IMG/VR virus record: IMGVR_UViG_3300046750_000103
Location: 1 to 32,625 of that record
Strand: one strand, 5' to 3'
DNA length: 32,625 nt
Source: a virus
Shown: positions 287-32,625 of the stretch, piece by piece
How positions within the stretch are numbered: the first letter of the stretch is position 1
Layout: each line of letters begins with the position of its first letter
Notes under the pieces: generated by a model
What the model was told of the DNA's origin: nothing
Seen by the model: the letters and a program-made list of their open reading frames with translations, nothing else
Database searches by the model: none
Position numbers and translations under genes: made by a program

Positions 287-444
287 AAAAAATAGAGTTT
301 GCTATTATAGAAAGGTTTGCTTTAGGTATTTTAATAGGTTTTAGTTATTTACCAGAAGATGAAAGTAGTGATTTTAGTGAACTAAACATTTATGTAATAT
401 TTATTGTATTACATTTTAAATTTTATAATAATGCCAATACCTAA
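283..444 (+). CDS. Small hydrophobic protein, 53 aa, unknown function
   Basis: A 53-codon frame starts at an ATG that overlaps the endolysin TGA (ATGA), the usual coupled arrangement in this genome. The product begins MKKIEFAIIERFALGILIGF. It has two hydrophobic stretches (about residues 12-23 and 36-47) separated by an acidic segment with E25, D26, E27, D30 and E33. It could be a small lysis-associated membrane protein, but I recognise no family. Its last codons overlap the next gene. Within that overlap the A/G difference at 436 between the two terminal copies changes N52 to D here but is silent in the next gene. A second copy lies at 31937-32098. Confidence 0.5.
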   Translation: MKKIEFAIIERFALGILIGFSYLPEDESSDFSELNIYVIFIVLHFKFYNNANT

Positions 445-868
445 AAAGAAACAAGGAGAAAAACAAAAAGACTATATGATGAGATGCGTACCTCAATTAA
501 TGAAGTACCATCCTGAAAAACAAGCTGTAGCGATTTGTTATAAATCTTTTAAAGGTTCTGTAGAATTAGAATCATATAATGACTATCCACAAGGTGCAAA
601 AAACAATGCAAAAAGAGCAATAGCATTTAAAGAAAAAAATGGTTCTAAATGTGGAACACAAGTTGGTTGGACTCGTGCAAGACAATTAGCAGATGGTAAA
701 AACATAACAAGAGATACTATTGCAAGAATGGCTTCGTTTAAGAGACATCAACAACACAAAGACGTTCCATATACAGAAGGGTGTGGAGGTTTAATGTGGG
801 ATGCTTGGGGAGGTTCTGCAGGAGTTAATTGGGCAATAAGTAAACTAAAACAAATAGACAAAAAATAA
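431..868 (+). CDS. Conserved phage protein of unknown function, 145 aa
   Basis: The product starts MPIPKKKQGEKQKDYMMRCV. The frame can be extended to a TTG at 404, but the ATG at 431 is preferred: the upstream gene ends in this overlap and the family starts MPIP. Two modules are visible. The N-terminal Cys motif (RCVPQ, later AICYKS) resembles motifs attached to phage head proteins. The longer C-terminal part is rich in invariant-looking residues: YNDYPQGAKNNAKRA, TRARQLA, RMASF and GCGGLMWDAWGG. From memory this second module occurs in many Bacteroidota and marine phages, alone or fused to head proteins, with no established function. It sits between the endolysin and a membrane protein. The second copy (32085-32522) differs by one residue (Ala to Ser before RMASF) despite 13 base changes in the frame. 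Confidence 0.75.
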   Translation: MPIPKKKQGEKQKDYMMRCVPQLMKYHPEKQAVAICYKSFKGSVELESYNDYPQGAKNNAKRAIAFKEKNGSKCGTQVGWTRARQLADGKNITRDTIARMASFKRHQQHKDVPYTEGCGGLMWDAWGGSAGVNWAISKLKQIDKK

Positions 869-2362: not shown

Positions 2363-2453
2363 TTTATATATTTGTCTGGCTTATAGCAAAACTTGCACAA
2401 CCTAATAAAGATGGACGGTGCTTGGAACAGGTAATTAAAATTATTTCTTTTTT
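2363..2453 (+). ncRNA. Candidate small RNA or structured leader
   Basis: This stretch after the holin has no convincing gene. TATATTTG at 2367-2374 matches the Bacteroidota -7 consensus TAnnTTTG, though I see no good -33 element. The next 57 bases (2375-2431) are about 44% G+C, clearly above the surroundings. They include GCAC (near 2391) and GTGC (near 2418) that could pair. A weak hairpin GGTAAT / ATTATT (2430-2435 and 2440-2445, loop TAAA) is followed by a T-run at 2448-2453 and could be a terminator. It may be a short RNA or simply the terminator region of the lysis operon. Confidence 0.3.
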
Positions 2454-2460
2454 GTAGGCT

Positions 2461-2506
2461 TTTTTCTTTCTTTTTCTTTTTGTCCTTTTTCTTTTTCTTT
2501 CTTTTT
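2461..2506. repeat. Perfect 21-nt polypyrimidine mirror repeat (H-DNA candidate)
   Basis: Left arm 2461-2481 reads T5 C T3 C T5 C T5. Right arm 2486-2506 reads T5 C T5 C T3 C T5, the exact mirror. The four-base spacer is GTCC. From 2459 to 2506 only one base (G at 2482) is a purine. Homopurine-homopyrimidine mirror repeats are the classical requirement for intramolecular triplex (H-DNA). The element lies between the lysis genes and the first early gene and ends 7 bases before the start codon at 2514. I see no coding frame through it. Confidence 0.85.
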
Positions 2507-2513
2507 AGTTATT

Positions 2514-2636
2514 ATGAATTGTAGATACTGTAAAATAAAAATGTTATATTTAGGAAGCAACCAAAATGGTTATTATTACTTGTGTTTAAAATGTAATAAC
2601 GTCATACCAACTAATGAAGAAATTAAGCAGAAGTAA
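2514..2636 (+). CDS. Zinc-ribbon micro-protein, 40 aa
   Basis: A 40-codon frame reads MNCRYCKIKMLYLGSNQNGY and ends with a second knuckle, CLKC. The CxxC at residues 3-6 and CxxC at 24-27 make a classical four-cysteine zinc ribbon. It is the first gene after the mirror repeat and overlaps the NinG-like start codon by 23 bases, so the two are co-expressed. Function is unknown; DNA, RNA or protein binding is possible. Comparable Cys-pair micro-proteins occur at 11676 and 12791. Confidence 0.55.
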   Translation: MNCRYCKIKMLYLGSNQNGYYYLCLKCNNVIPTNEEIKQK

Positions 2637-3003
2637 ACTTATAAAAAAACTTGACAAAGTATTTAGTTTATATATAAGACAAAGATATGCTAAAAATGAA
2701 ATAGCTCAATGTTTTACTTGTGGCAAAAAAAATCATTGGAAAAAATTACAATGTGGTCACTTCCAAAGTCGTAAACACTATTCAACAAGATGGGATGAAA
2801 TAAACTGCCAAGTACAATGTGCAGGATGTAATGTATTTAAGTATGGGGAACAATTTATTTTTGGTAAAAATCTTGATTTAGAATATGGAGCTGGATGTTC
2901 AGAAGCGCTTTATTATAAGGCAAAACAAATAACTAAATTTTCTACACCTGAAATAAATGAGTTAATAACTAAATATAACTTGTTAATAAACGACTTAAAC
3001 TAA
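2614..3003 (+). CDS. ninG: NinG/Rap-like recombination endonuclease
   Basis: This 129-residue protein carries the NinG layout. A basic N-terminal helix comes first, then C33-x2-C36, C47-GHF, a basic stretch with R53 and R59, N64, then C69-x2-C72-N and a gly-containing YGEQF segment. Lambda NinG (Rap) and relatives are zinc-containing nucleases that cut Holliday junctions and branched DNA during phage recombination. The length is shorter than lambda NinG (about 200) but typical of Bacteroidota phage versions. Neighbours (annealing protein, SSB, RecA-like ATPase) fit recombination-dependent replication. A terminator hairpin follows at 3049. Confidence 0.75.
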   Translation: MKKLSRSKLIKKLDKVFSLYIRQRYAKNEIAQCFTCGKKNHWKKLQCGHFQSRKHYSTRWDEINCQVQCAGCNVFKYGEQFIFGKNLDLEYGAGCSEALYYKAKQITKFSTPEINELITKYNLLINDLN

Positions 3004-6478: not shown

Positions 6479-6878
6479 AACTATTAAAAAACTTGAAGAA
6501 GCTGTTGTTAAATTTTTGAACTTTGATGGCTGGAATTTAGAATGGACTGGAGATGGTTTTAAACACTATGACGCTTGTGGTTTTACACGCAAAGGAAATC
6601 CTTGTGTAATAGAAATGAAGTTTAGAAATAAATATTATGAAGATAAAATGTTAGAGAAGTCTAAATATGATGCTCTAATGAAAATGGATAAAGAAGTAGT
6701 TAAACTTTATTTTGTAAATGACCCTAAAGGTAATTACTTGTATTGGTTAAATACTTTAAAACTTCCAGAACCAGTAGATATGTATTGCCCTGATACTACA
6801 CTATGGACTAAAAAAAGATTACTTAAACCTGTTTATTTACTAAAAGAAAACGAAGCTACAAGAATAAATCTAAATTAA
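6468..6878 (+). CDS. Second PD-(D/E)XK-fold nuclease-like protein
   Basis: The 136-residue protein has the motif HYDACGFTRKGNPCVIEMKF, with D35, E49 and K51 as the D...ExK triad, followed by a conserved-looking helix (YYEDKMLEKSKYDALM) and strand (KLYFVND). This is a restriction-endonuclease-like fold without an attached DNA-recognition domain. It may resolve or trim replication intermediates, or degrade host DNA. The last gene of this operon, it is followed at once by an early promoter box. Confidence 0.55.
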   Translation: MGIKTIKKLEEAVVKFLNFDGWNLEWTGDGFKHYDACGFTRKGNPCVIEMKFRNKYYEDKMLEKSKYDALMKMDKEVVKLYFVNDPKGNYLYWLNTLKLPEPVDMYCPDTTLWTKKRLLKPVYLLKENEATRINLN

Positions 6879-6879
6879 G

Positions 6880-6921
6880 TTATTAAATATTTTGTTTATA
6901 ACTTTAGTTGTTATATATTAG
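6880..6921 (+). promoter_or_regulatory. Early promoter, copy 2
   Basis: TTATTAAATATTTTGT (6880-6895) contains TTTTG at 6890-6894. Exactly 19 bases later is TATATTAG at 6914-6921, close to the Bacteroidota -7 consensus TAnnTTTG. Spacing and both elements are the same as at 11783. The predicted transcript start lies about six bases on, right at the hairpin at 6926. Confidence 0.7.
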
Positions 6922-6925
6922 CTAT

Positions 6926-6947
6926 ATAATTACAACGAAGTAATTAT
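6926..6947 (+). promoter_or_regulatory. 5' leader hairpin, copy 1
   Basis: Arm ATAATTAC (6926-6933), hexaloop AACGAA, arm GTAATTAT (6940-6947): eight consecutive pairs. It would sit at the very 5' end of the mRNA. The copy at 11829 keeps the fold with an A-U to G-C change and a U-A to U-G change, and loop AATGAA. A 5'-terminal stem-loop could protect the mRNA or be a binding site. Confidence 0.7.
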
Positions 6948-6964
6948 TAAAACAAACAAAACAA

Positions 6965-7321
6965 ATGGAAAATTTAAGATTTAATCAAGAAGTTGAAAGC
7001 CTTTTTCTAAAAGGTGGCTCACTTGTAAAAACCTGTATTAGTTCAGATGAAGGTTTTTTAGTTGGTGTTGTAAAAATGCCAAAGGATAGTTTAGTAGATG
7101 ATATAATATTTAAGTCAAAAAGAAAATTTGAGTATGTAATGATTTCTAATTACAAAAATTCTTATTTTGATAATAATGGCGAATTAGTTTATTCTAAAAT
7201 TGAAATATGTTCTTTACACAATGGTAATTTAAGGAGAATTAAAAACCTTTGTGTTGAACAATATAATGAGGATATAGTTTGCTACAGAAAAAGAGCAGAA
7301 TCAAAAGAATATATTTGGTAA
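6965..7321 (+). CDS. Unknown protein, 118 aa, in its own transcription unit
   Basis: The product starts MENLRFNQEVESLFLKGGSL and appears mixed α/β, with strands GFLVGVVKMP, FEYVMIS and YSKIEICSLH and a C-terminal basic part. It has two cysteines in the N-terminal half and two in the C-terminal half, but no clear metal site. It has a promoter, a 5' hairpin and its own terminator, a layout repeated for the gene at 11865. This resembles a moron-type accessory gene. The protein is unrelated to the 51-residue protein of the other cassette by eye. Function unknown; anti-host or modulatory roles are possible. Confidence 0.65.
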   Translation: MENLRFNQEVESLFLKGGSLVKTCISSDEGFLVGVVKMPKDSLVDDIIFKSKRKFEYVMISNYKNSYFDNNGELVYSKIEICSLHNGNLRRIKNLCVEQYNEDIVCYRKRAESKEYIW

Positions 7322-7340
7322 TTATTAAAATAATAACAAT

Positions 7341-7367
7341 GGGAGGGTAAAACCTCCCTTTTTTTTT
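7341..7367 (+). terminator. Terminator of the 6965 cassette
   Basis: GGGAGG (7341-7346) pairs with CCTCCC (7353-7358), followed by nine T (7359-7367). The preceding bases AAAATAATAACAAT are the same as before the terminator at 12033, so the two cassettes share their 3' ends too. Confidence 0.85.
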
Positions 7368-11676: not shown

Positions 11677-11777
11677 TGGAATGTAAAAAATGTAAACAGA
11701 CAATGACTATATATTCAGGTAAAGACAATAAAGACTACTACTACTGTAGCAAGTGCGATATATTAGAGTTTGAATAA
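11676..11777 (+). CDS. Zinc-ribbon micro-protein, 33 aa
   Basis: The ATG uses the last base of the terL stop (TAATG). The product starts MECKKCKQTMTIYSGKDNKD and has CxxC at 3-6 and 24-27, a four-cysteine zinc ribbon almost the same size and spacing as the one at 2514. Directly coupled to the packaging motor gene. Function unknown. Confidence 0.55.
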   Translation: MECKKCKQTMTIYSGKDNKDYYYCSKCDILEFE

Positions 11778-11782
11778 ATAAG

Positions 11783-11824
11783 TTATTAAATATTTTGTTA
11801 ATTAAATAAATAGTTATATATTAG
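11783..11824 (+). promoter_or_regulatory. Early promoter, copy 4
   Basis: TTATTAAATATTTTGT (11783-11798), TTTTG at 11793-11797, 19-base spacer, TATATTAG at 11817-11824. All elements match the 6880 promoter exactly although the spacers differ. It gives an early-type promoter inside the otherwise late terminase region. Confidence 0.7.
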
Positions 11825-11828
11825 CTGT

Positions 11829-11850
11829 ATAATTGCAATGAAGCAGTTAT
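11829..11850 (+). promoter_or_regulatory. 5' leader hairpin, copy 2
   Basis: Arm ATAATTGC (11829-11836), hexaloop AATGAA, arm GCAGTTAT (11843-11850), eight pairs with one G-U. Compared with copy 1 one A-U pair has become G-C, a compensatory change that supports a real RNA structure. Confidence 0.7.
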
Positions 11851-11864
11851 AAAAACAAAACAAA

Positions 11865-12020
11865 ATGAAAAATTTATTATTAAATGTAAACTCAAAAGAT
11901 TTAAAGTCAATGTCAAGTAGACAACTTGGAAGATTAAGGTATCAATTAAATGATATGAAAGAATTAGTTTCTAAAGAATTAGAAAAACATAGTAAAGAAG
12001 ATAATTTATTAGTAAACTAA
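11865..12020 (+). CDS. Small protein, 51 aa, in its own transcription unit
   Basis: A 51-codon frame starts MKNLLLNVNSKDLKSMSSRQ and continues as a charged helix (LRYQLNDMKELVSKELEKHSK). It has a promoter, a 5' hairpin and a terminator shared in design with the gene at 6965. The short helical form could suit an inhibitor or adaptor of a host protein. No family recognised. Confidence 0.6.
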   Translation: MKNLLLNVNSKDLKSMSSRQLGRLRYQLNDMKELVSKELEKHSKEDNLLVN

Positions 12021-12032
12021 AATAATAACAAT

Positions 12033-12055
12033 GGGAGTGTAACAGCTCCCTTTTT
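12033..12055 (+). terminator. Terminator of the 11865 cassette
   Basis: GGGAG (12033-12037) pairs with CTCCC (12046-12050), followed by five T. It is preceded by the same AAAATAATAACAAT run as the terminator at 7341. Confidence 0.75.
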
Positions 12056-31501: not shown

Positions 31502-31940
31502 GGAAGCAGTACGTTCCGAAACAGCAAAGCGTTTAGGCATATCTAATAAGCCTAAAAAAGAACATATTGAAAATATGGAGTTAATAGCTGAAAAAATATT
31601 CCAACCATTAAGAGAATGGGTAGAACACCCTATTAGAATAAACAGCTTTTATAGGTCAGAAGAATTAAACTCAAGAATTGGTGGTGCTATTTCATCTGCT
31701 CATAAAGAAGGTTTAGCGATAGATTTAGATTCTTTAGGGGGTAAAACTAATCTTGAAATGTTTCATTACATAAAAGACAATTTAGATTATGATATTTTAA
31801 TTAACGAATATCCAAATGAAGAAGGCGAACCAAAGTGGATTCACGTTAGTTGGAATAAAAAGAAAAACAGAAAACAAGTTTTAGAAATAAAACGCAAAGG
31901 CAGGTACTATACATATACAGGGTGTAAAGGCTGCAAATGA
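31470..31940 (+). CDS. M15 family peptidase (endolysin)
   Basis: The 156-residue enzyme matches the D-Ala-D-Ala carboxypeptidase/endopeptidase M15A pattern. A helical N-terminus is followed by SFYRSEELNSRIGGA. The first zinc motif is SAHKEGLAIDLD with H78 and D85 (H-x6-D). WIHVSW with H125 supplies the third ligand, and an acid in EEGEP before it would be the general base. It cleaves peptidoglycan cross-links. No signal peptide is visible, so a holin must release it. The tail (VLEIKRKGRYYTYTGCKGCK) is basic with two cysteines. It overlaps the holin-like gene before it. Confidence 0.85.
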   Translation: MKKISENISYKEAVRSETAKRLGISNKPKKEHIENMELIAEKIFQPLREWVEHPIRINSFYRSEELNSRIGGAISSAHKEGLAIDLDSLGGKTNLEMFHYIKDNLDYDILINEYPNEEGEPKWIHVSWNKKKNRKQVLEIKRKGRYYTYTGCKGCK

Positions 31941-32098
31941 AAAAAATAGAGTTTGCTATTATAGAAAGGTTTGCTTTAGGTATTTTAATAGGTTTTAGTT
32001 ATTTACCAGAAGATGAAAGTAGTGATTTTAGCGAACTAAACATTTATGTAATATTTATTGTATTACATTTTAAATTTTATAATAATGCCGATACCTAA
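31937..32098 (+). CDS. Small hydrophobic protein, 53 aa (second copy)
   Basis: Second copy of the frame at 283-444, overlapping the endolysin stop as ATGA. Two substitutions separate the copies: a silent one in codon 32 and N52 to D in the region overlapping the next gene. Confidence 0.5.
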   Translation: MKKIEFAIIERFALGILIGFSYLPEDESSDFSELNIYVIFIVLHFKFYNNADT

Positions 32099-32522
32099 AA
32101 AGAAACAAGGAGAAAAACAAAAAGACTATATGATGAGATGCGTACCTCAATTAATGAAGTACCATCCTGAAAAACAAGCTGTAGCTATTTGTTATAAATC
32201 TTTTAAAGGTTCTGTAGAATTAGAATCATATAATGACTACCCACAAGGTGCAAAAAACAATGCAAAAAGAGCAATAGCATTTAAAGAAAAAAATGGTTCT
32301 AAATGTGGAACACAAGTTGGCTGGACTCGTGCAAGACAATTAGCAGATGGTAAAAACATAACAAGAGACACAATATCTCGTATGGCTTCGTTTAAGAGAC
32401 ATCAACAACACAAAGACGTTCCATATACAGAAGGATGTGGAGGTTTAATGTGGGATGCTTGGGGAGGTTCTGCAGGTGTTAATTGGGCAATAAGTAAACT
32501 AAAACAAATAGACAAAAAATAA
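32085..32522 (+). CDS. Conserved phage protein, 145 aa (second copy)
   Basis: Second copy of the 431-868 gene with the ATG at 32085. All but one of the encoded residues are unchanged (Ala to Ser before RMASF); 13 bases differ, mostly at third positions. This is the pattern of two natural variants under purifying selection rather than of read errors. Confidence 0.75.
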   Translation: MPIPKKKQGEKQKDYMMRCVPQLMKYHPEKQAVAICYKSFKGSVELESYNDYPQGAKNNAKRAIAFKEKNGSKCGTQVGWTRARQLADGKNITRDTISRMASFKRHQQHKDVPYTEGCGGLMWDAWGGSAGVNWAISKLKQIDKK

Positions 32523-32625
32523 ATGGCAACAAAGATTAGTGAAGACACAAACGTACAATTAGATTTAAAAACTATTGGTATTATAATAGCAGGAACAATA
32601 TCACTTGCGAGTATGTGGTTTACTT
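32523..32625 (+). CDS. Membrane coiled-coil protein, 3'-truncated copy
   Basis: First 34 codons of the gene at 869-1177, cut by the window end within the membrane helix. One silent base differs (892 in left-copy coordinates). Confidence 0.85.
   Translation, partial: MATKISEDTNVQLDLKTIGIIIAGTISLASMWFT

Follow-up and report, generated by a model that had tools for sequence, protein, structure and literature searches.

Genomic setting of the mirror repeat

The window, meaning the whole 32,625-nucleotide stretch of viral DNA analyzed here, is a phage genome of ~31.65 kb that is apparently near-complete and either circular or permuted. Positions 1–971 and 31655–32625 overlap for 971 bp with 98.5% identity, showing strain variation at the join. 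Because the window ends overlap, the gene of a 154-aa protein is found twice. A pyrimidine tract is located between a holin-family gene (1942–2349, PHROG 3427) on its upstream side and a small Cys-rich ORF plus the gene of a NinG/Rap-like endonuclease (NinG) on its downstream side (Table 1), in agreement with an earlier note on this DNA that had placed it where the late lysis operon borders on the first early gene. Pfam and PHROG searches with the Cys-rich ORF gave no match. GC skew was positive throughout the window and gave no origin signal, its sign being driven by coding on one strand, where nearly all genes lie. It is possible that the tract is a replication origin or a polymerase pause site. 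Direct repeats were also observed at 6871–6976 and 11775–11876 (82%, 107 bp) and at 7326–7363 and 12018–12055 (92%, 38 bp); these sites lie in the early region and immediately after the terminase gene, and they are possibly further shared regulatory elements.

Reading of the sequence and a script both confirmed the description in the earlier note, namely a perfect 21-nt mirror around GTCC with a single purine (G2482) among the 48 bases of 2459–2506. The right arm is the exact reverse, and not the complement, of the left arm. When mirror repeats with loops of at most 10 nt were ranked in the window, this tract was the longest by far, with an arm of 21 compared with 11 for the runner-up. The 46-nt tract was further shuffled 20,000 times, and an arm of 21 was never reached; the maximum was 20, obtained in six shuffles. 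Therefore, the symmetry exceeds mere T-richness, and the claim that a simple T-rich run would not show it was borne out. The window tract is a homopurine·homopyrimidine mirror repeat with a short axis loop, as is characteristic of H-DNA.

A coding origin of the tract was rejected, since its length changes among relatives are not multiples of three, the window itself has, compared with most relatives, an additional A within 2431–2460 that disrupts the plus-strand frame, and an ORF covering the tract on the minus strand is absent. Two tract-like sites in the window (436–471 and 32091–32125) were weak matches that represent Lys-rich coding sequence.

Architecture and distribution of the element

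The mirror tract forms the 3′ module of a conserved element of ~140 nt (2367–2506), in which a promoter-like box, a base-paired RNA core, a spacer, and the tract follow each other from 5′ to 3′ (Table 1). The box matches TAnnTTTG, which is the Bacteroidota −7 promoter consensus. In all relatives, the spacing between core and tract is 24–36 nt, and in every element the T-rich strand of the tract is the RNA-like strand, so that the U-rich polarity is fixed. A G-run, ranging from TAGGC to GGGGGGC, is nearly always found between the pyrimidine run and the left arm in all elements, and it recalls the G-run/U-run sites of transcription arrest.

Table 1. Positions of the modules of the element and of its 3′ neighbors in the window
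Feature	Position	Strand	Remarks
Promoter-like box TATATTTG	2367–2374	+	TAnnTTTG match; position shared by most relatives, some with TATATTTA
Hairpin GCTTATAGC	2379–2387	+	Short, P1-like; at the presumed RNA 5′ end
P3 core hairpin	2392–2430	+	CUU-GCAC (2395–2398)-loop with CCUAAUAAAG-GUGC (2418–2421)-UUGGAACAG (2422–2430)
Spacer	2431–2460	+	Pyrimidine run and short G-run (TGTAGGC) directly 5′ of the tract
Left arm T5CT3CT5CT5	2461–2481	+	Read from the sequence and by script
Mirror-axis loop GTCC	2482–2485	+	In relatives, 4-nt (mostly GTCC, ACTC, ACCC) or 6-nt (GNYTAC-like) loops
Right arm T5CT5CT3CT5	2486–2506	+	Read from the sequence and by script
Small Cys-rich ORF, zinc-ribbon-like	2514–2636	+	3′ neighbor, outside the element
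NinG/Rap-like endonuclease gene	2614–3003	+	PF05766; usual neighbor; source of the tree

NinG relatives were scanned in viral contigs, in which the tract was seen within a block that was more conserved than its flanks. The set of relatives was defined by pattern scans for this block combined with a structure-aware filter, and membership required a T-rich mirror tract as well as an RNA core. As a result, 129 distinct elements were obtained in 129 loci, all from uncultured viral contigs; NinG adjoins the element in 103 of these loci. There is one element per ~31–35 kb record, the checked records being mostly of this size. The cultured-phage records of INPHARED, in which the NinG relatives are distant, contained no element. 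The class A core pattern (see below) gave no matches in bacterial genome contigs, and one Flavobacterium-centred family, represented by 397 genomes, had no match to the class B core. The bare tract pattern matched many bacterial genomes, and those matches were short simple repeats having neither the core nor long mirrors. The element family is thus known only from uncultured viral contigs, as none was present in the cultured-phage records or the searched bacterial genomes.

Coordinated change of the two arms

Next, the arms were compared among the 129 elements, which comprise 64 distinct tracts and 33 series of T-run lengths. Examples of such series, each reversed across the loop, are 5-3-5-5, 4-4-5-5, 5-3-3-5, 4-4-6-5, 4-4-3-3-5, and 4-3-4-5-7, the last reading in full 4-3-4-5-7 before the loop and 7-5-4-3-4 after it. 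The earlier note had held that relatives keeping a pyrimidine tract without mirror symmetry would speak against a triplex; instead, 49 of the 64 distinct tracts are perfect mirrors. The symmetry itself, and not composition alone, is maintained in the relatives by coordinated changes in both arms.

In a permutation test, arms of the same phage matched at 17.58 of 18 mirror positions, whereas arms taken from different phages gave 12.97 (sd 0.27); the former level was reached in none of 20,000 permutations. Perfect pairs accounted for 21 of 33 unique arm pairs but for only 4 of 1056 non-cognate pairs, and the identity of the arms in direct orientation was just 12.7/18. Over the 1.12 Mb of sequence that these loci comprise, exact mirror arms of at least 16 nt numbered 105 inside elements and one outside them.

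Arm changes were then placed on the branches of a tree built from the NinG proteins of 95 loci. The left arm changed 35 times and the right arm 33 times, with 30 branches carrying both changes against 6.2 expected; 25 of these 30 double changes yielded a perfect 16-nt mirror again. Among 28 edge-disjoint closest pairs, both arms had changed in 23, three of which (L203/L226, L029/L209, and L187/L185) represent a shifted loop assignment, and one arm had changed in five. All five single-arm changes were single-base substitutions, and none was a length change. Close relatives sometimes differ across the whole tract, so that recombination exchanging entire blocks may make same-branch changes seem more numerous than they are. 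Nevertheless, neither shifts of loop assignment nor recombination of whole tracts accounts for the mirror symmetry of nearly all variants.

As for the composition of the arms, adjacent Cs were absent from every arm of the 64 tracts, and the only purines interrupting the arms of relatives were single G or A residues. A few mirror-position pairs were C/G, G/G, or A/A, which make poor triads. Single-base mismatches between the arms are tolerated and register changes are not; the types of mismatch at mirror positions gave no indication of which arm would be the third strand. The axis loop was 4 nt long in 93 elements and 6 nt in 22. Isolated Cs, T-rich arms, and loops of 4 or 6 nt fit what would be expected for a Y·R·Y triplex with a folded pyrimidine strand. 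The letters of the loop are nonrandom, being mostly RYYC (GTCC, ACTC, ACCC) in 4-nt loops and mostly GNYTAC in 6-nt loops. In L164/L007 (IMGVR_UViG_3300017746_000077), the tract region consists of long T-runs with scattered changes, and the downstream ORF is also damaged; this state is probably a sequencing or assembly error, although it may be a real degenerate copy.

Covariation in the RNA core

The class A core, to which the window belongs, has the form CUU-(4 bp)-NCCUAAUAAAGNNGGANN-(4 bp)-UUGGANCAG. In its P3 hairpin, the four pairs that make up the stem are the most strongly covarying column pairs of the alignment; they are canonical in all 107 sequences, with three or four pair types each. 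In classes B and C, the P3 loop is shorter, and an H-type pseudoknot of P1 and P2 lies upstream, at the place of the GCTTATAGC hairpin of the window. P1 occurs in these classes as GTAG/CTAC, TCAG/CTGA, CTAG/CTAG, and ACAG/CTGT, and P2 as GTAA/TTAC, GTAG/CTAC, GCAA/TTGC, and GCAC/GTGC. In a 24-sequence alignment, 97.8% of the cells of the pseudoknot and P3 were paired, and 43 cells had changed on both sides compared with 11.7 in shuffles; none of 500 shuffles reached the observed level. When the partners were slid by 1–3 columns as a control, pairing fell to 14–48%. Covarying pairs are therefore present above the controls, as in a structured non-coding RNA. G-U pairs are present on the strand of the element, indicating that the reading direction of the RNA is the one that makes the tract U-rich. 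An Rfam 15 covariance-model search found no family that matches the element. Single-strand folding of the window leader was unremarkable (z +1.35), as is expected for short covarying helices with a U-rich tail, and the tract-less core of L486 likewise folded only slightly better than shuffles (z −1.08).

Cores without a mirror tract were observed in L480, L486, L490, L463, L468, L465, L466, L469, L483, L500, L502, and L505, and they carry a hairpin of the form CUU-stem-CCUAAUAAAG..GGA-stem-UUGGANCAG. Some of them, for example those of L480, L486, L490, and L465, lie in gaps between tail genes and are antisense to them. Since some phages have the core alone, the core works without the tract, and from their sequences these copies look like members of a wider phage RNA family. 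Conversely, on the minus strand of L328, a T-rich mirror tract (T3CT5CT3CT5, loop ACCC, and the mirrored arm) comes directly after a very dissimilar structured RNA (95 nt, −24.5 kcal/mol), which suggests that such a tract can be reused as a 3′ module. Taken together, the cores lacking a tract and the tract of L328 on another RNA indicate that core and tract are separable modules of small RNA genes.

Proposed mechanism and alternative explanations

Mirror symmetry, and not inverted symmetry, is the requirement of an intramolecular triplex, in which the purine strand forms normal pairs with one of the pyrimidine arms and is overlaid in parallel by the other. As judged by comparison of the relatives, the co-variation of the arms is evolutionary evidence for a putative three-stranded structure that these viruses keep and use. 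A purine partner that tracks the arm variants was absent elsewhere in the fetched loci, where the match was 15.1/18 for a phage's own arms and 15.0/18 for arms of others; the simplest partner is therefore the DNA strand complementary to the tract itself. The pyrimidine strand would fold back over the 4–6-nt loop and place the third strand in parallel on its own purine strand, forming T·A-T and C+·G-C triads. The folding strand might be the DNA itself, giving H-DNA of the H-y type driven by transcription supercoiling, or it might be the nascent U-rich RNA, which would clamp the purine template strand. Such a triplex would probably arrest RNA polymerase and set the 3′ end of the RNA, and the opened A-rich single strand, or the tethered 3′ end of the RNA, may start phage DNA replication. 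The fixed polarity together with the fixed spacing to the core favors a role for transcription. We consider it probable that a phage RNA gene has the tract as its 3′ module, that the symmetry of the tract is selected, and that its pyrimidine strand folds on its own purine strand, arrests polymerase, and may start replication. The cores that lack a tract and the mirror pairs that make poor triads speak against this model. A more specific proposal, in which these elements would constitute a class of RNA genes with a self-templated triple-helix 3′ end that stalls polymerase and primes or opens a replication origin, is offered as a tentative one.

An element acting purely as DNA, that is, as H-DNA serving supercoil-sensitive origin unwinding or pausing with the RNA core as an independent neighbor, is possible and in our judgment rather unlikely. 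Mirror symmetry with a 4–6-nt axis loop is the signature of H-y DNA, the complement supplies the purine strand automatically, each record has one element, and its orientation is independent of the genes. However, the spacing to the core would then not be expected to be fixed, and free-standing H-DNA would be expected in both polarities, whereas the T-rich strand is always RNA-like; this polarity suggests involvement of RNA, for which pure H-DNA has no need. Involvement of RNA could also be in trans, with the U-rich 3′ tail clamping a purine-rich RNA or DNA target of the host or phage as a triple helix. The clamp geometry of two pyrimidine arms and a short loop would fit this, as would the polarity and the appearance of a stand-alone RNA gene, but the 33 series would need equally many co-evolving targets, and no arm-tracking purine partner was present in the fetched phage DNA, which makes such a function improbable.

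The position of the window element and most class A elements, just upstream of and on the same strand as the Cys-rich ORF and NinG, would agree with a 5′ leader of the early operon or with an insulator, transcribed or not, that separates the first early gene from the late lysis genes. This arrangement is not general: in 24 of 123 elements (~1/5), both neighboring ORFs, or the sole visible one, are on the opposite strand, and the elements of L472, L478, L525, and L536 run opposite to NinG. Moreover, no intrinsic terminator, i.e., a G+C-rich hairpin followed directly by a U-run, was found; the tract begins 30 nt after P3. A stand-alone RNA gene fits the flipped loci better, and we regard a leader or insulator as hardly probable. 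Accordingly, the earlier note's view of a mirror repeat able to form a triplex is upheld by the coordinated arm changes, whereas its view of the setting is only partly upheld: rather than being an isolated boundary element or insulator, the tract ends a conserved structured-RNA element that is flipped in these loci. Lastly, T-runs are mutable, and their lengths vary between closely related phages, as would be seen under neutral low-complexity drift or under concerted evolution of the tract by slippage or arm-to-arm gene conversion. However, no templated copying makes mirrors, because template switching gives inverted repeats and conversion gives direct repeats; furthermore, the ordered series stay reversed with low direct-orientation identity, and one-arm length changes are absent among independent pairs. 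Such an origin is thus extremely improbable.

Comparison with known systems

The structure of H-DNA is already known, and prokaryotic triplex motifs have been catalogued as G/C-rich intrastrand motifs or bulk mirror counts. As far as can be told, the element, the RNA family, and the type of evidence are new; in the open-access literature, neither this RNA nor a mirror repeat conserved through compensatory mirror changes was found to be described. Whether intramolecular DNA triplexes have a role in vivo has been debated from the 1980s onward, with disease repeats and plasmids supplying most of the arguments. In the present case, evolution has apparently performed the compensatory-mutation test, producing dozens of variants of which most are perfect mirrors again. 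The logic is the same as that by which RNA secondary structure was established, with mirror symmetry replacing complementary symmetry. We know of no other natural nucleic-acid triplex recognized by compensatory (mirror) covariation, and if our reading is true, this would be the first found in this way. It would provide a small, concrete, and testable element together with an undescribed phage RNA family, and genome scans for mirror covariation are suggested as a general route to functional triplexes.

In a survey of prokaryotes, mirror repeats occurred at normal frequency in most phyla (PMC4060949). Bacterial intrastrand triplex motifs (TM/BoxC) are conserved prokaryotic triplex candidates; they are G/C-rich, have many copies per genome, and consist of a strand folded twice into two hairpins that share a purine strand (Holder et al. 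2015; PMC4666352). Unlike these motifs, whose three arms including the purine arm lie on one strand, the phage tract is T-rich, occurs once per genome, and has no same-strand purine arm, both arms in the window being T/C. Rfam RNAs such as preQ1 and SAM-II type pseudoknots, 6S-flavo, and Flavo-1 similarly combine a covarying H-type pseudoknot with a hairpin, whereas the phage element is a stand-alone gene tied to no single downstream gene. In ENE/MALAT1-type RNA triple helices, U-rich arms can likewise sandwich a purine strand. The ENE arms are part of an internal loop, and what they bind is the A-rich 3′ end of the same RNA; in contrast, the phage RNA has no A-rich strand, and the ordered Cs of its arms require matching Gs.

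Transcription-primed origins include the R-loop origins of T4, RNA II of ColE1, and the mitochondrial CSBII G-run plus U-run. By analogy, the phage element might share with them a promoter, a structured RNA, a G-run followed by a U-rich run, and one copy per genome. It has no sequence relation to them, its role in replication start is putative, and to our knowledge its mirror symmetry has no counterpart among them. Features shared with H-DNA, such as GAA/TTC tracts, are exact mirror symmetry, >95% pyrimidine, arms of 18–27 nt, an axis loop of 4–6 nt, and isolated Cs. Known natural cases of H-DNA are mostly simple repeats. In contrast, each phage tract is a unique, complex series that is kept by coordinated change and joined, always in the same polarity, to a structured RNA.
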